A stretch of DNA of 29,972 bases from IMG/VR virus record IMGVR_UViG_3300049491_000169, positions 1 to 29,972 of that record; one strand, given 5' to 3'. Shown piece after piece: positions 17,498-26,500 of this stretch. Origin of the DNA: a virus. Position 1 is the first letter of the stretch, and every line of letters begins with the position of its first letter. A model generated the notes under the pieces. That model made no database searches. It was not told the DNA's origin and was given only the letters and a program-made list of their open reading frames with translations. The translations under genes were made by a program, and so were the position numbers.

Positions 17498-18556
17498 TTA
17501 CTCCACCTTCATCAGGATGGCCGCGGCGAACTGCTCCACGACCACCACGTAGTAGCGCTCCGCGAGTGCGACGTGCTGGTTCGTCTCGAGGATGAATGCC
17601 TCGGAGACGGTTACGTCCCCGCGCCAGATGTGGACCGGCCCGGAGATGTAAAGCCAGAGCTCGCCAGCGCCAGCGACGACGCCACCGGGACCGAAAGGGC
17701 TGGTGTAGCCGTTGCCGTTCGCCACGAGGCTGCCGTTGACCGTCGACGTGATGCCGAGCTCGGTGTTGGCGATCTGCTGGGTCGCGAGCATGATCGCTCC
17801 GCGCTTGCCAGTGTGGACGACAGGGACGCCACCATAGATGGTGCCCGCGTACTCCTCGAGAATGCCCAGAGCCACGCGCGCCTCGACCGCCGTGCCTGAC
17901 ACGGGGGTCAGGTCGATAGCTGCCTTGGCGAGCTCGTAGTTCCAGACGCGCTCTTCGACTGCACGCTGCTCACCGATCTCAAGCGACCTCGTTGCCTTCG
18001 GCGCGTGCTCGGTGTGGTTGAACAGGTAGCACCCGATCCCCTTGTAGACCGGGAACGGGTCGCCATGCTGGTGCGTGAGCTCCGCGAAGATCTTCTCGGC
18101 AGTGGAGACCGTCTCAACGAGGTTGCCACCGGCAACCACGATGTCGATCGACTGACGGAAGTAGTCAGGCCCGGTCACCGTGATGGTGTAGGAGCCGTTC
18201 GCGACGTAGGTCAGATCCTTGACGTTGACGTTGCCGCCCACCTTGGTCTTCGAGTCGGGTGTTGCGACGACGAGCGTAACCGTGCCCGTGCCGTTGCCCT
18301 TGTCGATCGTGTAGGTGCCAGCGGCCCCGCCACGAACAGTCAGGTCAACGTGCAGGGCGACTGCGCCGTCGGTTGCTTCGATGGCACTCAGCGCACAGGG
18401 GTCCGGTGCGATCGTCGCGGTGCCAATCGAGTCGATCTCCATGTCCACGCCCGTGAGGTAGTGGTCGTCGGAGACGGTCTCGAGTGTTGCGGCCACGGCG
18501 AAGAGCCCACCGGAGGCGAGCGTCGTGGTTGGTGTTGGTACGAAGATTCCTACCAT
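17498..18556 (-). CDS. Second large capsid-region virion protein, 352 aa
   Basis: This gene lies directly below the major capsid gene. It combines an N-terminal part with an Ig-like insert (about 70-145: LTVRGGAAGTYTIDKGNGTG, then VANGSYTITVTGPDYF) and a conserved C-terminal part. The latter has LEIGEQRAVEERVWNYELAKA, VALGILEEYAGTIYGGVPVV, a WLYISGPVHIWRGDVTV strand set and HVALAERYYVVVVE. I recall related C-terminal regions in actinophage virion proteins next to the capsid gene. The helix-then-sheet order suggests a capsid-fold relative or vertex/decoration protein, but this is inference. The spacing from the capsid gene is filled by a perfect 15-bp hairpin. Confidence 0.6.
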   Translation of the reverse strand: MVGIFVPTPTTTLASGGLFAVAATLETVSDDHYLTGVDMEIDSIGTATIAPDPCALSAIEATDGAVALHVDLTVRGGAAGTYTIDKGNGTGTVTLVVATPDSKTKVGGNVNVKDLTYVANGSYTITVTGPDYFRQSIDIVVAGGNLVETVSTAEKIFAELTHQHGDPFPVYKGIGCYLFNHTEHAPKATRSLEIGEQRAVEERVWNYELAKAAIDLTPVSGTAVEARVALGILEEYAGTIYGGVPVVHTGKRGAIMLATQQIANTELGITSTVNGSLVANGNGYTSPFGPGGVVAGAGELWLYISGPVHIWRGDVTVSEAFILETNQHVALAERYYVVVVEQFAAAILMKVE

Positions 18557-18618: not shown

Positions 18619-20268
18619 TTACGCCGGGTAGCCGGTGGTGAGGCTGGTGATGTCGGCGCGACCCACACGACCGTGGGTGTCGAGCGCGATGTCCACGAGC
18701 GTTCCGCCGCCGAACATGTTTGCAACGAGCAAGCCCTCCTCGAAGAAGATGGCCGTGTAGGTGTTCGTCTTGACGTCGGTCGAGTCGTAGATCGCGTCGA
18801 GCGAGATCACGTCGGTCGTGCCCTTGACGAATGCACCTGCGGGGTAGAGCGCGACCTGTGCGCTGGTCGGGGTGGCGACACCCGTTGCAGCGAGATCCTG
18901 CCAGTCATAAACCCACTGGATCGAGATGCCGCGGATCGCGAAGAACGCCGTCACCTGCGCGTCGGTGATGCTGAGGAAGTTCTCAACGCCCATGCGGTAC
19001 GCGAGGTCGCGACGGAACACGATGCGGAGCCACGCCGGGGCGAAGGCTTCGAGCGTGGCGCCGATGTTCAGGCGGTACTTGTAGCGGAGGCGCTCGGCCG
19101 CGAGCTCGAGGGCGTTCAGCGTGTCAGCGACAGCCGAGCCGTACTCGGTTGCGTTGACCGCGGTGCCGAGGAACGTCACGATCTTCGAGATGACGCGAGC
19201 GTTCACCTTGTGCTGGTGAGCGACGAGGCCGGCCTCGAGGTAGCGGCGAATGAGCTCCGGGTATCCGACGTTGGTCAGGATGCCGGCGCGGATGCCGTAG
19301 CCGATCGCGTCGAGACGAACCTCGGAGAAGTCGGGGCACTCGACGTCGATGATGTTCTTGACGGTCGCGGCCTCGGCCTCGGCCTCGGTCTGGACGAACC
19401 CGATGCTCGAGTAGATCGCGGAGAAGTCCGGACCCTGCGTGTAGTTGATGCCACCGCGCTTGATTCCCACCTCGGGAAGCGAGAGGATGCCGTCGACGGT
19501 CTCCCACGCCATGAGGTCGTAGATGGTCTCCGACGGGGCGCACCAGCCACCGGCTGCGACGAGCGAGTTGCCCGGGAGACGCTTCTCCTGAGCCGCGGCC
19601 ATGAGGGTCGCGTAGTTCTCGCCAACCGAGTCACCAAGCATGAACTCTGCCGGGATCTCGCGCTTGATCGAGAACACGCCGTAGCGGTCCTGACGCTCGC
19701 CGGAGCCCTTGGAGGTCGGGAACCCCTTGAGGCGAGCCTGCACTGCAGTCGCCGCCTTGGTGAGGTCGGTGATCTCGGTGCCTGCTGCAAAGCCGGCGAT
19801 GTCGATCGACGCGATGATGGTGTTCTTCGGGCGATCCGTGGCCTCGTCGACCGGAGCATCCGGCTCGACCTTGCGAGCGACACGGCTGACGACCTTGCGA
19901 CGTGTCCCTGCTGCTGCAGTCACGGATTCCCCCTCGAGGATTTCGGAGGCGTCGTCGGGAACAACGATGTCCTCGTCGCCCTCCGTCTCGGCCTCGGCTT
20001 CTGGCTCGACACTGGCAGCGTCGAGTGTTGCTCGCGCGGCAGCGATGCGTGCCGTGCGCTCATCTGCGGCTGCAGTGCGGGTGTCGCTCTCAGCCTGAAT
20101 CGTGTTGACGGCAGCGGCGAGACCCTCGAGGTCGTCGATCTGCTCGTCGGTCAGTTCGAGCTCGTCGATCGCGGTGAGCTCGGCGTATTCGGCCAGCGCG
20201 TCCGCGAGGAGAGCGTCGATTGCGGCGGTGTCGAGGGCACTGAGGCCGTCGGGAAGCTTGAACTTCAT
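18619..20268 (-). CDS. HK97-type major capsid protein with N-terminal scaffold-like domain, 549 aa
   Basis: Residues 1-100 are acidic and helical (IDELELTDEQIDDLEGLAAA, VNTIQAESDTRTAAADERTA) and resemble a delta-type internal scaffold that the phage protease would remove. Residues about 100-150 are a Glu/Asp-rich then basic linker. The remaining 400 residues fit an HK97-fold shell protein: GGWCAPSETIYDLMAWETVD, a long beta/helix core, FSEVRLDAIGYGIRAGILTN, VFRRDLAYRMGVENFLSITD, and a C-terminal ALDTHGRVGRADIT. The length exceeds a plain HK97 capsid protein, as expected of a fused scaffold. A promoter-like sequence lies about 100 nt upstream and a strong hairpin lies downstream. AGGAG precedes the ATG by 9 nt. 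Confidence 0.88.
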   Translation of the reverse strand: MKFKLPDGLSALDTAAIDALLADALAEYAELTAIDELELTDEQIDDLEGLAAAVNTIQAESDTRTAAADERTARIAAARATLDAASVEPEAEAETEGDEDIVVPDDASEILEGESVTAAAGTRRKVVSRVARKVEPDAPVDEATDRPKNTIIASIDIAGFAAGTEITDLTKAATAVQARLKGFPTSKGSGERQDRYGVFSIKREIPAEFMLGDSVGENYATLMAAAQEKRLPGNSLVAAGGWCAPSETIYDLMAWETVDGILSLPEVGIKRGGINYTQGPDFSAIYSSIGFVQTEAEAEAATVKNIIDVECPDFSEVRLDAIGYGIRAGILTNVGYPELIRRYLEAGLVAHQHKVNARVISKIVTFLGTAVNATEYGSAVADTLNALELAAERLRYKYRLNIGATLEAFAPAWLRIVFRRDLAYRMGVENFLSITDAQVTAFFAIRGISIQWVYDWQDLAATGVATPTSAQVALYPAGAFVKGTTDVISLDAIYDSTDVKTNTYTAIFFEEGLLVANMFGGGTLVDIALDTHGRVGRADITSLTTGYPA

Positions 20269-20630: not shown

Positions 20631-22973
20631 CTACTTGACCTTCGCCTTCGCTCGTTCGATGCGGAGGGTACGCATCTTGTCCCTGTCGCTCGCGATCGCA
20701 GCGAGGCGCTCCTTACGCTTGGCGCGGTGCTCCATCTCGTCTGCAACTGCAGCCACGAGGCCGACTGCCGAGTCCATGTCGAGCTTCACGCTCGCGACAA
20801 GCTCCTCGCGCTCCACGATTCCCGCGGCAATGAGCGACGTCTGCACGTTGCCCGACGCGGCGAGCGAGGTGCGAGGGACGGGGAAGCCTGGCACGTTGAC
20901 CGCGAGGGCTGCGACGAGCTCGAGGCTGCCACCGATACGACGCCAGTCGCCGGAGATCGGAGCCGCGCGGAACTCGCGAACCTGCTGCTCCGTGAGGCCG
21001 TCGCGCAGCGCACCGGCGACCCAGATGCCGTGCGCATCCTCGCCGCTGGTGACGTCGGCAACCACAGTGCCGGTGTTGTCGTAGTGCGCGATTGCCTTCT
21101 TCGCGTTCCACTGCTCCCCGGCGTGGCCGGTGGTCATCGTGATCTGCCCGACGGCGATCTCGCCCTTCTCGGTGAGGACGGCGCCGGTGCGGAACATGGC
21201 GTAGTTCGTCGCCGAGAATGGCGCGGTCGTGCAGACGCCGGAGAGCCCGATGTGGCAGACGCCCCACTTCGCGATGTGGCCGAAGACGCGACCCTCCTTG
21301 GTCACAGTCAGCGCCGTGGCCTTCGAGAGCTTCGGGTTGGCGAACCACTCGCTCGGGAGCGTGGTCTCGGCAGCCGGGTAGACGAGCCTGACTGACGGGG
21401 CAGAGGCGACGAGCGAGTGCGCGCCGGTCTCGCGACCCGGCCAGACGCCGAGAGCTTCCTTGTGCATGTTCGCGCACGCGCCGGCGAGCCACTGCGGGTT
21501 GGTGATGTACTTCGCAAGCTGCTTGCGGCAGCGGTTGAAGTCTCCCGGTTCACCCCAGCGGATCTTGGCTGCTCCCTTGCCGTGGGTCCAGTAGCGGCGA
21601 ATGCGCGCGGTGTCCTCGGGGTTGGTAATCCAGCCCGGTCCATCCTTGGTGCCGGGGGCGAAGGCGTCGACGACGGCAGACGCGACGACTCCCTCGATGC
21701 CCTTCGCCGCGAGGAAGGCAATCAGGTTCTCGAGAGTCTGCTCCTCGAGGGGGACGTCTGCGGCGTGAGTCTCGACGAGGGCGAGTGCAGGCGCAACGTG
21801 GATGCCATCGCCCTCTTCCTCGTTCGGGAACGGGTCGTCGATCTCGGAGTGATCGGCCATCTCGTCGGGGCAGTCGCATTCGCCGAGCGCGAGGTACGCC
21901 TCCTGAAACGCCGGGATCGCCACGACGGTCAGGCCGGCGATGCGCGCACGGGAGAACACCGTGATGGCCTCGCCCGACATGAAGGCATCGATGTCATCCA
22001 TCGGGGTCGACGCCTGCATGTCGATCGCGGACTGATCCACGTCCACGCTGACGCCACGAACCGAGCCGTCGATCAGGCCACTGATGACCTCTTCGACCTC
22101 GGGGGTCGAGTTGAAGGTTCCGCTGTACTGGATGAGGTTGGCCTCGTCGACCCACATCTTGTCGATCGCGCCGACGCGCACCGATCCACCGTGCCCGTCG
22201 TCGCTCGCGCGCTGGTAGAGCAGGGGGAACGGGAACTCGCGGAACTCGATCGAACCGATCGCGAACATGCGGCCGTCGCCCGATGGCACTCCGACCGGGG
22301 CCGCGACGCCGTGGAACGGGATCGGGAGCTCTTCGTCAACGGGTGCGTCCTCGGGAGCGACGGTCTCCTCGACCACCGGCTCCTCGACTGGCACATCTAC
22401 CGCAAAGGTAGTGCTCGTGTTGTTCATCGTTCTCCCTCTCCCCACGCCCTGCACGACACAGCGGCAGTTGATCCAGATTTCAGGCGGGCCGATTGGCTGC
22501 CCGGGATAGTCGAGCTCGTACCCGCCTACCTTGAACTTTGCACCGATTCTCACGGTCTGTCGAGCGGCCATGACGTGTGTGTCACGAACATCGCCGTCGC
22601 GCATGGTCACCCAGCGCTTGTTCGGAACGGAGTTGGCGCGGTGCGCGCTGACCGTCGCGTCGTTCACGGTGACGGTCCCGAGCCACATCGTGATGCGGTC
22701 GATCTGCCCGTCGCTCGGCGGCGTGTCGGGCGTCGACGTCTTCTCGAGCGAGCTTGTCAGCATCTTGGCGAAGTCGCGCAGCCCGTTGTCGGGGAAGGCG
22801 TCGGGCGACTCCTGCTGGAAGATCTCGAGCCAGAGCACAGAGGCAAGCTCCACGATGTCCCCGGCCCAGTCCCCGCCGAAGTTCGCGAGCGCCTTGGCGA
22901 CAATCGGGCGCATCTCCTTGTCGGCCGCCTCGAGCCGAGTGTTGCGCGACGCAGCGAACTCCTCGTAGTCCAT
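20631..22973 (-). CDS. MuF-like head protein fused to capsid maturation protease, 780 aa
   Basis: I start at ATG 22973, which shares one base with the portal stop (TGATG); the longer frame to 23126 lies inside portal. Residues 1-175 are MuF-like, ending in WVTMRDGDVRDTHVMAARQT, YELDYPGQPIGPPEIWINCR. Residues about 230-365 resemble an XkdF/prohead-type serine protease, with H261 (SDDGHGGSVRVGAI) and S309 (GSVRGVSVDVD). Residues about 445-515 form a helical domain (GPGWITNPEDTARIRRYW..HKEALGVWPG). Residues 530-702 form a second conserved domain with HYDNTGTVVADV, GEDAHGIWVAGAL, ISGDWRRIGGSLELVAALAV and VPGFPVP. The C-terminus is basic and helical. It should act in prohead maturation by cutting the capsid scaffold. 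An internal ribosome site at 22427 may produce the protease part alone. Confidence 0.82.
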   Translation of the reverse strand: MDYEEFAASRNTRLEAADKEMRPIVAKALANFGGDWAGDIVELASVLWLEIFQQESPDAFPDNGLRDFAKMLTSSLEKTSTPDTPPSDGQIDRITMWLGTVTVNDATVSAHRANSVPNKRWVTMRDGDVRDTHVMAARQTVRIGAKFKVGGYELDYPGQPIGPPEIWINCRCVVQGVGRGRTMNNTSTTFAVDVPVEEPVVEETVAPEDAPVDEELPIPFHGVAAPVGVPSGDGRMFAIGSIEFREFPFPLLYQRASDDGHGGSVRVGAIDKMWVDEANLIQYSGTFNSTPEVEEVISGLIDGSVRGVSVDVDQSAIDMQASTPMDDIDAFMSGEAITVFSRARIAGLTVVAIPAFQEAYLALGECDCPDEMADHSEIDDPFPNEEEGDGIHVAPALALVETHAADVPLEEQTLENLIAFLAAKGIEGVVASAVVDAFAPGTKDGPGWITNPEDTARIRRYWTHGKGAAKIRWGEPGDFNRCRKQLAKYITNPQWLAGACANMHKEALGVWPGRETGAHSLVASAPSVRLVYPAAETTLPSEWFANPKLSKATALTVTKEGRVFGHIAKWGVCHIGLSGVCTTAPFSATNYAMFRTGAVLTEKGEIAVGQITMTTGHAGEQWNAKKAIAHYDNTGTVVADVTSGEDAHGIWVAGALRDGLTEQQVREFRAAPISGDWRRIGGSLELVAALAVNVPGFPVPRTSLAASGNVQTSLIAAGIVEREELVASVKLDMDSAVGLVAAVADEMEHRAKRKERLAAIASDRDKMRTLRIERAKAKVK
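22427..22446 (-). promoter_or_regulatory. Internal ribosome binding site and in-frame ATG within the MuF-protease gene
   Basis: On the minus strand GGGGAGAGGGAGAACG immediately precedes an ATG at 22427 that is in frame (codon 183), exactly at the boundary between the MuF domain and the protease domain. This is a stronger site than many true starts in the window. It would give a 598-aa product starting MNNTSTTFAVDV. Confidence 0.6.
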
Positions 22974-24751
22974 CAGGCGGGCTCCTTGGCGAGCGCGAGG
23001 TATGAGCGCATCATCGTCATATCGTGGGGCGCGCGTGTCATGAGCAGAGACCGCGTGTAGCTGTCGACGCACTGCACGAACGCAGCCTTGTCGCACGCCA
23101 GGCTCATCCGGTCGACGGTCGACCACGCATCCTCAAGCAGGTCGTCGGCATCCGAGACCCCGAGCGTGACGTGCTGGTACAGATCCATGGCTACGACACC
23201 GGGTGGGCGCAGCCCGAACTTCGTCTTGATCTTGTTGCCGGCGCGCTCGAGTGCGCGGAACACCGCGGCTTCCGCTGCCGCAGCGATCGCGTCGTTGGCA
23301 GGATCAGTCGTATCGGTCGGGAGCTCCTGAACGGGGTGGTCGGCGATCGAGGGCTCGGGTCGCGCCTCGGTGGTCGGGGACGCGATCGGCTCGGGGAGAA
23401 CGAACTGGATGCCGAGCTCCTCGAGGGCTGCCTGCACGAGCTCGGGCGTAGTCGAACCGCTCGCGACCTTGCGGATGAACCAGCGCTTGAGCTCGTCCTC
23501 GCCCATAATGTCGGCCTCGTCGAACCCGTTCTCACGGAGCAGGACGGTCGCGGAGATCTCACCCTTCTCGTAGAGCTCCATGGCTTCCTTGGACCGGTTC
23601 GGGCGCAGACGCATCTCGGAGGTGTCGGCCTCGAAGGTGTAGCTCGAGAGCTCCTCTTCGGGAACCTCATCCTCGATCAGCGGGTGCAGGAACTTCTTGG
23701 TGAGCTCGCTGGTGATGATCTTGAGCAGGGGCTCAGTGTGCGACTTGATGCTCGCCTCTTCGACCTGCCATGAGCCCCAGTGGTTCATGTCGCCGGTGCC
23801 GGTGAGCACCTCGGGGGGCATGTCCATCCCCATCGCGAGTCGACCGATGGCTTCCTTGCGGAGCTCGACCGACTTTCCATCGAGCTCGGACCAGAACGTG
23901 AGGTTCTGGATCTTGTCGAGGAACTCGCCGGGCGCCTGCAGGATGATGGGCACGAGAGCCGACGGGTCAGAGCGGTCTTGGATCGCGAGAGCCATCGTCT
24001 GCATGAGCTCGTCGAGGAACGCGGCGGCGCGCTGCTGCTGCGACTGGTCTTCGTTCGAGTCGGAGGACGGGCCATTCGGAAAGCTGATCTCCTGTGGCAG
24101 GAGCAGAAGGCCGGCACCGGCGAGACGTGAGTCGAGTTGCGCGGCGACGTGCTGCGTGAGCTTGTAGATCTCCTGCAGAATGTCGAGCAGAGGGCGGCTC
24201 GGGGAGTTGGCCTGCTTCGGCTTGCGCGGGTGCTTGCGGTAGCACCGGATGACGAGCGGGTCGCTGTCCTCGATGGGGTCGGAGCCGATCTTGTAGCTGC
24301 TCGCGCCGTCGTACTTGAGCTCGGTGGAGGCGATGACCATCCACTCGTCCGCGAGTTCATCGTTGTCGTTCGACACGCCGATGATGTAGCCCTCGCCGGC
24401 GACGGTCATGTGGATGCCTAGCATGCGCAGCATCTCGGCCTGACCCTCGGGGCCGTCGAAGAGTGACGCGAGAGCGTCGAGCGCGAACTCGTCCTCGATG
24501 CGCACGCCGTCTTTGGCGATGTAGAGCTTGGCCTTCGAGAGGACGTTGCCCACCCAGTCGCACGAGAAGCGATACTCGGGGATGAGGTCGTACCATTCCC
24601 ACGCGCGCTTCTGGAAGTCTTCGACCTTGACCGTCTTGGGCTTCCGGCTGGCGGCTGCCGAGTTCGCTGCGGCCATACTCCGAGCCGATGCGATCAGCGA
24701 GTTCGCTGTCACAAGGGTCGCGGGCTGAGCGAACCTCTCAGTCCTTGGCAT
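22973..24751 (-). CDS. Portal protein, 592 aa
   Basis: The protein lies between the terminase and MuF genes and has a portal profile. There is an N-terminal region with YDLIPEYRFSCDWVGNVLSK, then IAKDG and LLHxHL-like SLFDGPEGQAEMLRMLGIHM. TVAGEGYIIGV follows in the wing. A long stretch holds RLAGAGLLLLPQEISFP and LMQTMALAIQDRSDPSALVP. Next is the clip/stem region ELRKEAIGRLAMGMDMPPEV with LTGTGDMNHWGSWQVEEASI. Actinophage portals share 'LTG..D.NHW..W..DE/EA.IK.H..P'. The C-terminus after 470 is Ala/Pro-rich and helical. Twelve copies would form the DNA channel at one vertex. GAGGGGGG precedes the ATG. Confidence 0.92.
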   Translation of the reverse strand: MPRTERFAQPATLVTANSLIASARSMAAANSAAASRKPKTVKVEDFQKRAWEWYDLIPEYRFSCDWVGNVLSKAKLYIAKDGVRIEDEFALDALASLFDGPEGQAEMLRMLGIHMTVAGEGYIIGVSNDNDELADEWMVIASTELKYDGASSYKIGSDPIEDSDPLVIRCYRKHPRKPKQANSPSRPLLDILQEIYKLTQHVAAQLDSRLAGAGLLLLPQEISFPNGPSSDSNEDQSQQQRAAAFLDELMQTMALAIQDRSDPSALVPIILQAPGEFLDKIQNLTFWSELDGKSVELRKEAIGRLAMGMDMPPEVLTGTGDMNHWGSWQVEEASIKSHTEPLLKIITSELTKKFLHPLIEDEVPEEELSSYTFEADTSEMRLRPNRSKEAMELYEKGEISATVLLRENGFDEADIMGEDELKRWFIRKVASGSTTPELVQAALEELGIQFVLPEPIASPTTEARPEPSIADHPVQELPTDTTDPANDAIAAAAEAAVFRALERAGNKIKTKFGLRPPGVVAMDLYQHVTLGVSDADDLLEDAWSTVDRMSLACDKAAFVQCVDSYTRSLLMTRAPHDMTMMRSYLALAKEPA

Positions 24752-24767: not shown

Positions 24768-25091
24768 TTACTCGCGCTGTTCGTCGCGGCCGATCAGAAT
24801 GCTTGAGAGGTAGGAGATTCCGAGCCAACCCCAGAACGCCCACCACGACCAATGCAATTCAGAGAATACCCCCCACGAGAGGCAAATGAGCATGATCCAT
24901 GGCGTGGCGCACCACTGACAACTCGCCAGCTTCGACCATGGGCCGTCTTTCGTGAGCTTGGCCCACTGCATTCTGACCCACACTGAGGGCGGGAAATCGT
25001 CGTAGGTGAGCACGCGCGAGAGGCGCCCGACGCCAGCGACAGCGACTGCGATGGCGGCGAGGATGAGGATCGGGTCGGTCGGGAAGTTCAT
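24768..25091 (-). CDS. Small membrane protein (DUF1360-like), 107 aa
   Basis: There is a hydrophobic segment at 7-21 (PILILAAIAVAVAGV). The motif RLSRVLTYDDFPPSVWVRMQ follows, then CQWCATPWIMLICLSWGVF at about 58-76 and a Trp-rich segment WSWWAFWGWLGISYLSSIL at 81-99. The R.lT.D..p...R and CxxC..PW pattern matches the DUF1360 family, which is frequent between terminase and portal genes of actinophages. It is an integral membrane protein with probably three segments and a possible CxxC metal or disulfide site. Function is unknown. Its ATG overlaps the terminase stop by 4 nt (ATGA), so expression is coupled to packaging genes. Confidence 0.78.
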   Translation of the reverse strand: MNFPTDPILILAAIAVAVAGVGRLSRVLTYDDFPPSVWVRMQWAKLTKDGPWSKLASCQWCATPWIMLICLSWGVFSELHWSWWAFWGWLGISYLSSILIGRDEQRE

Positions 25092-26500
25092 GCTGCTCTC
25101 CTTGCGTTGCCACGACCACGGGGGCTCGTAATCGTGAAAGTGCCGGCGTCGCCGACGAGTTCAGTGGCTGCCCAAACGAGGGCGTCGACCCGGTTCGGCG
25201 AGTCGCCCTCGCCGGGAACCCACGTCGTCATCTCGGTCTCGAGATCGGCCAGCGTCGAGCCTACGTGATAGACCCTCTTCTGCTCGTACTTGGCGACAAT
25301 CGGCTCCGCGCGCAGTTGCTTCGAGCGGGTAGCCGTGCGCACGAGAATGCGGGCGTCGGTGCGCATTTCCTTGAGCACGTTGACGATGGTGGCCTTGACC
25401 ATATCGCCGCCGTAGTTCTTCTCGGCGACGATCGCGTCGGCCTTCCACTTCGTGTAGAGCTTGATCGCCATCTCTGCCCACCCGTTGGGGCTGTACTTGC
25501 CGCTGGCATCTTCGAGCACGTAGAGGTTCTGGCCGATCTTGCCGACCACGACGATGCCCGTCTCGTCTGACTTGCGGTTGTTCGTGCCTGCCGGGTCGAT
25601 CGCGACGATGATGCGCTGCAGCTTGGTGATGTCGAAATCGAGCTCCGCGATGTGCTGCAGCATCTCGAGCTTCCAGAGCGAGCCCTCCACGTCCTCGAGG
25701 ATCTCACCGTGGAGTTCCTGACGACCAAGGCGGGTGCCCTCGTACTTGGCGAGGACGAGCTCGGCGAACTGGGGCGCAAGGTTCTTAATATTCGCGTAGG
25801 TCGACACTGCGGTTGACCGGGTGCCCTTGTCCTTGATCATCTTGCGCAGCCACTTTGTCGGCTTCGGCGTGGTGGTCATCGCGACGTGTGGACGGTCGCC
25901 GAGCCGGAGGCCGAACAGCGCCATGTCCCAGACGTCGGAGATCAGCGGAATATGGGCGGGCTCGTCGAGCCACATCGCGGCGTGCTGCGGGCCACGGAGT
26001 CGGTCAGGCTCCTCGCCCGAGAACGTGCCGGCGACAGCGCCCGACGGGAAGGTGATCTTGTGCTTCGAGGGCTCCCACTTGATCTCCTGCCCCTGAGCCA
26101 TGAACACGGCCTGCAGCCCGGACTCGCCCTCTACCATGACGTCGCGCACGGACGCGGTGGTCGGGCCGATCAGCGCGATGCGCTCGAACTTCTCGGACAG
26201 GCGGCGCACGTACTCGGCGCCGGCGCGGGTCTTGCCTGAGCCACGACCGCCACGAATGAGCCAGACGAACCAGTCGGTTCCGCGCGGGGGCCACTGGTCG
26301 CCGCGGGCATGAGGGTAGTCGAACCCCTCGTGCGCTTCGCCATCGCAGACGCGACCGCGGGTGCAGTACCACATGCGGCGTTCGCCCTCGAGCCGGGCGC
26401 GCAGCGTCTTCATCGCCTCGCCCTTGGCCTTCTCGCTCCACCCCTTGGTGTACCGGGTGAACTCGGCGAGCCCTTCGGGAGTACCGAGGTCAATCGCCAT
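25088..26500 (-). CDS. terL: Terminase large subunit, 470 aa
   Basis: The packaging ATPase and nuclease. Walker A is GGRGSGKT at 84-91. Walker B is AAMWLDEP at about 174-181 with D179/E180. A coupling motif TTTPKP lies at 209-214. The nuclease half has IIVAIDPAGTN with D302, a DAIVAEKNYGGDMVK segment with E360, and RVDALVWA with D439. These three acids are placed as expected for the RNase-H-like nuclease. Length is normal for the family. The start at 26500 overlaps the preceding RHH-like gene by 11 nt. It works with the small subunit (26830-27417) and docks on the portal. Confidence 0.95.
   Translation of the reverse strand: MAIDLGTPEGLAEFTRYTKGWSEKAKGEAMKTLRARLEGERRMWYCTRGRVCDGEAHEGFDYPHARGDQWPPRGTDWFVWLIRGGRGSGKTRAGAEYVRRLSEKFERIALIGPTTASVRDVMVEGESGLQAVFMAQGQEIKWEPSKHKITFPSGAVAGTFSGEEPDRLRGPQHAAMWLDEPAHIPLISDVWDMALFGLRLGDRPHVAMTTTPKPTKWLRKMIKDKGTRSTAVSTYANIKNLAPQFAELVLAKYEGTRLGRQELHGEILEDVEGSLWKLEMLQHIAELDFDITKLQRIIVAIDPAGTNNRKSDETGIVVVGKIGQNLYVLEDASGKYSPNGWAEMAIKLYTKWKADAIVAEKNYGGDMVKATIVNVLKEMRTDARILVRTATRSKQLRAEPIVAKYEQKRVYHVGSTLADLETEMTTWVPGEGDSPNRVDALVWAATELVGDAGTFTITSPRGRGNARRAA

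Follow-up and report, generated by a model that had tools for sequence, protein, structure and literature searches.

Two predicted prohead-protease folds in tandem in a MuF-like fusion protein of actinophages, the second beyond the reach of Pfam

Background

By analogy, the nearest precedent for the arrangement described here is the pair of protease paralogues gp245 and gp117 of phage SPN3US, which are encoded by separate genes in giant Salmonella/Erwinia phages, are linked in sequence by HHsearch at 3e-17, and differ in that the second member has diverged in its active site (PMC5694885). The protein that we analyzed is similar in that one phage carries two protease-like units, the second with a diverged active site; unlike the SPN3US pair, both units, hereafter D1 and D2, reside in one polypeptide, and D2 has diverged past sequence recognition. 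Among the known prohead proteases, the S78 family (Pfam PF04586), which includes HK97 gp4, shares with D1 its fold, the Ser in a G-[MV]-S-V motif, the His preceding a V-G strand, and the closing P-A-[FN] motif, although D1, unlike S78, forms part of a fusion with MuF and precedes another domain of the protease fold. The likeness of D2 to S78 is confined to the predicted fold, with no detectable similarity in sequence; moreover, unlike S78, D2 has a helix preceding the strand that comes after the S78 catalytic His, and carries the extra invariant residues H574 and H617. T4 gp21 (S77) and herpesvirus assemblin resemble D1 at the level of fold only (model match at a probability close to 1, with a TM of about 0.5).

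The protein belongs to the group annotated by SEA-PHAGES as “capsid maturation protease and MuF-like fusion protein” (phrog_859, phrog_18402, phrog_21470, phrog_29860), in which D1 and D2 are not told apart. In the open-licence literature we found no description of D2, nor of such domains in tandem in one protein. Here we computed the architecture of this protein, its predicted folds and its pattern of conservation, and identified phages that carry D2 without D1.

Results and discussion

Architecture of the locus

The window, i.e. the whole stretch of DNA that was analyzed, is a viral record of 29,972 bases. Its head genes and the segments of the fusion protein are arranged as follows:

25088-26500, minus strand: terminase
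22973-24751, minus strand: portal, adjoining the fusion gene
20631..22973, minus strand: MuF / capsid maturation protease fusion, 780 aa, between portal and major capsid protein
22404..22676, minus strand: MuF-like head morphogenesis segment, residues about 100-190 (phrog_2468, E 6e-16)
21870..22340, minus strand: D1, S78 prohead serine protease domain, residues 212-368
21423..21617, minus strand: phrog_6439 domain with no assigned function, residues 453-517 (E 1.6e-24)
20856..21401, minus strand: D2, predicted prohead-protease-fold domain outside Pfam, residues 525-706
20634..20786, minus strand: charged C-terminal tail, residues about 730-780, read from the translation
18619-20268, minus strand: major capsid protein, after the fusion gene
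17498-18556, minus strand: phrog_779 protein, after the major capsid protein

The ATG of the 780-aa gene overlaps the portal stop codon by one base, and the translation yields the domain order MuF-like – D1 – phrog_6439 domain – D2 – charged tail. The MuF domain near the N-terminus is evident from the phrog_2468 match, with PF04233 reaching E 0.012, under its cut-off. In the PHROG scan, residues 260-359 weakly match the head maturation protease family phrog_3244, and the C-terminal domain is the one common to phrog_859/18402/29860/21406. These matches, together with the annotation of relatives, support the reading of the gene as a capsid-maturation / MuF fusion. The residues named in the preliminary description are all present in the translation: H261 (in SDDGHGGSV) and S309 (in VRGVSVDV, followed by VVAIPAFQEA) are 48 residues apart in D1, and H630 (in AHYDNTG) and S674 (in PISGDWR, followed by VNVPGFPVP) are 44 residues apart in D2. 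Judging by its conservation among non-redundant relatives, this residue pattern is beyond chance in both domains.

The phrog_779 protein is related to isolate genes occupying the same position (E 2e-20 to 4e-4), some of which, as in Dori and Coffee, are named “major capsid pentamer protein”.

Distribution and annotation of relatives

The whole fusion protein matches 1,020 phage records in tblastn searches, mostly from Mycobacterium, Gordonia and Microbacterium phages, and its relatives usually bear the annotation “capsid maturation protease”, to which “MuF-like fusion” is added in some cases. When the domains are searched separately, D2 is found in 848 phage records versus 176 for D1, and the mean column identity in the alignments is 55% for D2 versus 32% for D1, so that D2 is the better conserved of the two. 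It is widespread in actinophages and goes unrecognized by Pfam, and the genes bearing it are also named portal protein, RNA ligase, minor head protein, membrane protein, or hypothetical. D1 and D2 occupy a single ORF at 192 of 232 loci. The phrog_6439 domain accompanies D2, preceding it in some proteins, as in the window, and following it in others; the loci concerned include L109 and L218.

A 2H phosphoesterase (“2'-5' RNA ligase”) domain is also fused into MuF/protease proteins, where its position varies: it may be N-terminal, lie between MuF and phrog_6439, or come after D2. This accounts for the “RNA ligase” labels on capsid genes. Such fusions are found at the following loci:

L109:3935-6550
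L229:3941-7033
L108:2808-5411
L221:1235-4813
L024
L169

Several individual loci deserve mention. D2 is also present in MAG contigs labeled Myxococcaceae or Acidobacteria (L186, L202), which are possibly mis-binned actinophage contigs, and in L186 D2 is followed, in the same ORF, by one more region matching a “head maturation protease” PHROG. The D1 match in L183 comes in two pieces, 365-445 and 457-563, perhaps owing to an insertion inside D1. In L073 and L074, the open frame of the fusion runs to 1,737 aa, of which more than 500 lie beyond D2.

D1 is an S78 protease domain

The model of D1 (residues 212-368; AlphaFold2, 57 aligned relatives) has a pLDDT of 92.3, and its best matches in PDB, with probability of 0.97-1.0 and TM of about 0.5 for the best of them, include the HSV-2, KSHV and HCMV proteases and T4 gp21. 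Pfam PF04586 matches 13 of the 57 D1 relatives (best 7.8e-7), with D1 of the window, taken alone, falling under the Pfam threshold. In a comparison of profiles, hhalign joins D1 to S78 with an E-value of 5e-8, which none of 200 column shuffles came near. The S78 profile comprised nine sequences, HK97 gp4 and members from actinobacterial genomes, the latter being used because the relatives of HK97 gp4 in viral contigs were too close to each other.

Conservation of individual residues was counted in non-redundant relatives (less than 80% identity; n=125 for D1 and n=139 for D2). For D1, the two candidate catalytic residues are:

22047..22049, minus strand: S309, candidate nucleophile, present in 125/125
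22191..22193, minus strand: H261, candidate catalytic His, present in the exact column in 116/125

A His is found somewhere in residues 251-267 in all 125 relatives, and in the hhalign alignment S309 falls on the Ser of GMSVGF in HK97 gp4. D1 is thus an ordinary member of Peptidase_S78, on the basis of its profile match, predicted fold, and conserved Ser and His, and from its family membership it is almost certainly catalytically active.

The predicted fold of D2

D2 yields no such sequence match. None of its 59 members hits a credible Pfam family; in PHROG, no protease family matches D2 except for those defined by D2 itself; and its score against the S78 profile is not significant, being reached by 11 of 200 shuffles. 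Searches of PDB sequences with D1, D2 or the whole protein, by phmmer and with profiles, returned nothing real.

The model of D2 (residues 525-706; AlphaFold2, 59 relatives) has a pLDDT of 90.8. In BFVD, the informatively named matches that follow 12 orthologues are prohead proteases, or head proteins containing or accompanying a protease; the non-orthologous matches are mostly of probability 0.9-1.0 and E 1e-4 to 1e-2, and include P2-type scaffold, core scaffold, and capsid proteins that we took to be protease fusions. Against solved structures, Foldseek gave no significant match in PDB, T4 gp21 having the highest TM-score among the matches listed, a weak one (TM 0.35/0.38, prob 0.08). The AlphaFold2 models, matched in PDB for D1 and in BFVD for D2, therefore support the initial proposal of two prohead-protease-type folds in tandem, with the shared fold resting on structure prediction, since the profile similarity of D2 to both D1 and S78 is not significant.

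Candidate active-site residues of D2

The conserved Ser and His residues of D2 are as follows:

20952..20954, minus strand: S674, invariant (139/139), in the SGDWR motif
21123..21125, minus strand: H617, invariant (139/139), predicted to lie shortly past a strand
21252..21254, minus strand: H574, invariant (139/139)
21084..21086, minus strand: H630, 132/139, predicted to lie at the end of a helix

G609, G649 and G654 are also invariant in the 139 non-redundant sequences. S674 aligns with S309 of D1 once predicted secondary structure is added; H617 and H630 are the candidates for its His partner. The preliminary description had paired S674 with H630, and sequence alignments indeed place the S78 His position near H630-N633, yet the D2 region aligned to the S78 catalytic His reads H630-Y-D-N rather than the S78 His itself. 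Moreover, 7 of the 139 sequences, belonging to several lineages, have Y, F, A or Q in place of H630, and none lacks H617 or H574. As a catalytic His should not vary, the assignment of H630 is doubtful and H617 is the better candidate; judging by this conservation, the His of D2 is probably H617 rather than H630.

Two other functions were weighed against proteolysis. Most D2 members contain a C-H-x6-C pattern plus a His that resembles a metal site, and the weak PDB matches of D2 would also be compatible with some other fold or enzyme, for instance one binding metal through C573/H574/C581/H617, in which case the resemblance to proteases would be misleading. We consider this very improbable: both cysteines are absent in Vivi2, YorkOnyx, TP1604, phiSAJS1 and others, where H574 and H617 stay in place, and the informatively named non-orthologous matches in BFVD are proteases or protease-containing head proteins. 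The four-residue metal site was rejected because its cysteines are dispensable. In the Streptomyces phages TP1604 and phiSAJS1, which lack both of them, SGDWR has in addition changed to SYHMR or SYHMK, still with H574, H617 and S674 retained.

It is quite possible, though we would not favor it outright, that D2 is an inert pseudo-protease, with D1 alone doing the cutting. Its role would then be to bind the capsid protein at the scaffold-like N-terminal extension, or to anchor and oligomerize the fusion protein. H630 has been lost in several D1-containing lineages (it is absent from 12 of 157 sequences with D1 and D2 versus 0 of 25 with D2 only), and those D1 domains that we read at H630-replaced loci retain their His and Ser. 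D2 is always found within head-assembly genes, and the giant phage SPN3US provides an example of a diverged second protease-like protein with an unaligned catalytic His (PMC5694885). On the other hand, an inert module would not obviously need S674, H617 and H574, each of them invariant in 139 sequences, and the phages described below, which carry D2 with no D1 or S78 match, keep the capsid N-terminal extension.

Duplication or independent acquisition

The preliminary description regarded D1 and D2 as an internal duplication, pointing to a recurring pattern. In the secondary structure predicted for each domain, this pattern does recur, as a strand with G, a helix, the Ser, and a closing strand, but the similarity in sequence is by itself not significant: a score as high as the real D1-D2 one is obtained in 7 of 300 column shuffles. 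The origin of the tandem from a single S78 domain, which would fit either function of D2, agrees with the presence of both domains in one ORF at most loci and with an hhalign alignment that, with predicted secondary structure, pairs S309/S674, D311/D676, P354/P695 and H261/H630. However, an end-to-end register is sensible only once predicted secondary structure is included; without it, the similarity drops to shuffle level and the register differs. Nor do the two domains resemble one another more than they do the rest of the fold, the D1-D2 profile score being no better than that of D2 with S78 in general. Finally, D2 is found alone and in other domain orders, and therefore moves as an independent module. 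We consider duplication less likely than not as the origin of the tandem; as the profile similarity of D2 to either D1 or S78 is not significant, the second domain of this fold may equally well have been acquired independently.

Phages with D2 but without D1

Twenty-five D2 sequences come from ORFs with no detectable D1 and with a 5′ end that is not obviously cut. Their architectures include MuF-X-6439-D2 in viral contigs and D2-6439-2H-phosphoesterase in Gordonia phages. When whole records were searched, the D1 profile and PF04586 gave no match in eleven D2-only viral contigs, which may be fragments, most of the loci nevertheless spanning the stretch where D1 normally sits, and none in Gordonia phages Vivi2 and YorkOnyx, whose genomes are complete; three D1-bearing records included as a control were detected by the D1 profile in the same search. 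No D1 match was found anywhere in six bacterial genomes with D2-only prophages, two of which are MAGs and may be incomplete. ClpP, S49 and phrog_3244 were also without a match in the subset of D2-only records that was searched.

All 25 D2-only sequences retain H574, H617, H630, S674 and SGDW. Their capsid protein has its N-terminal extension just as that of D1-bearing phages does (median ORF length of 578.5 aa without D1 and 579 aa with it), and the capsid profile starts no later than position 20 in 152 of 155 cases with D1 and in 30 of 30 without it. Since the extension persists in the absence of D1, an agent other than D1 must cut it in these phages, if cutting is required, and D2 is the obvious candidate. 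Alternatively, D2-only phages might do without any maturation protease, or might have one too diverged for the profiles.

We considered whether D1 could reside in the C-terminus of the MuF protein of Vivi2 and YorkOnyx, which matches phrog_1752 (“head maturation protease”). The D1 and S78 profiles find nothing there, and visual reading of this segment revealed no protease motif. The main text of PMC7150772, on Rosebush-type phages, in which we sought mass-spectrometry evidence for capsid cleavage, mentions neither protease nor cleavage. The Vivi2 MuF-like minor capsid protein, gp14 (L109:435-3686), contains an apparent intein at residues about 290-607, as judged from PF14890 and NCBIfam intein models, all under cut-off; the related YorkOnyx protein has no intein match.

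A model for the two domains

The best explanation for these observations, to which we would give about an even chance, is that D1 is a canonical S78 protease and D2 a second serine protease of the same fold, diverged from it and using S674 and H617. The MuF-like part would bring the fusion protein into the procapsid, where it would cleave head proteins. D1 would act as the canonical S78 maturation protease, with S309 as its nucleophile and H261 as the general base. The highly diverged D2 would employ S674 as the nucleophile and the invariant H617, rather than H630, as the base, and the third member could be H574 or the variable H630. In phages that lost D1 or never had it, D2 may serve as the maturation protease; where both domains are present, they may divide the substrates, e.g. 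the capsid N-terminal extension versus the fusion protein itself.

Judging from the models and the conserved residues, D2 is probably either a second, divergent head protease (Ser674/His617) or a conserved pseudo-protease, and on balance we lean towards an active D2 with S674 as its nucleophile. We suggest, more tentatively, that D2 could found a new family of head-maturation serine proteases with a rewired Ser-His(-His) arrangement (S674/H617/H574), capable of replacing an S78 protease, but usually fused in tandem with one, so that a single chain would hold a maturation machine of two proteases.

Conclusions

Hundreds of sequenced actinophages carry D2 with no role assigned to it and under misleading names. 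If D2 is a protease, it would represent a second route to capsid maturation, and would show annotators which domain to name protease in those phages that seem to have none. If it is a conserved pseudo-protease, it would exemplify, unusually, the conversion of a capsid enzyme fold to a part of the assembly. Phages with D2 only, such as Vivi2, and those with both domains constitute a natural experiment.
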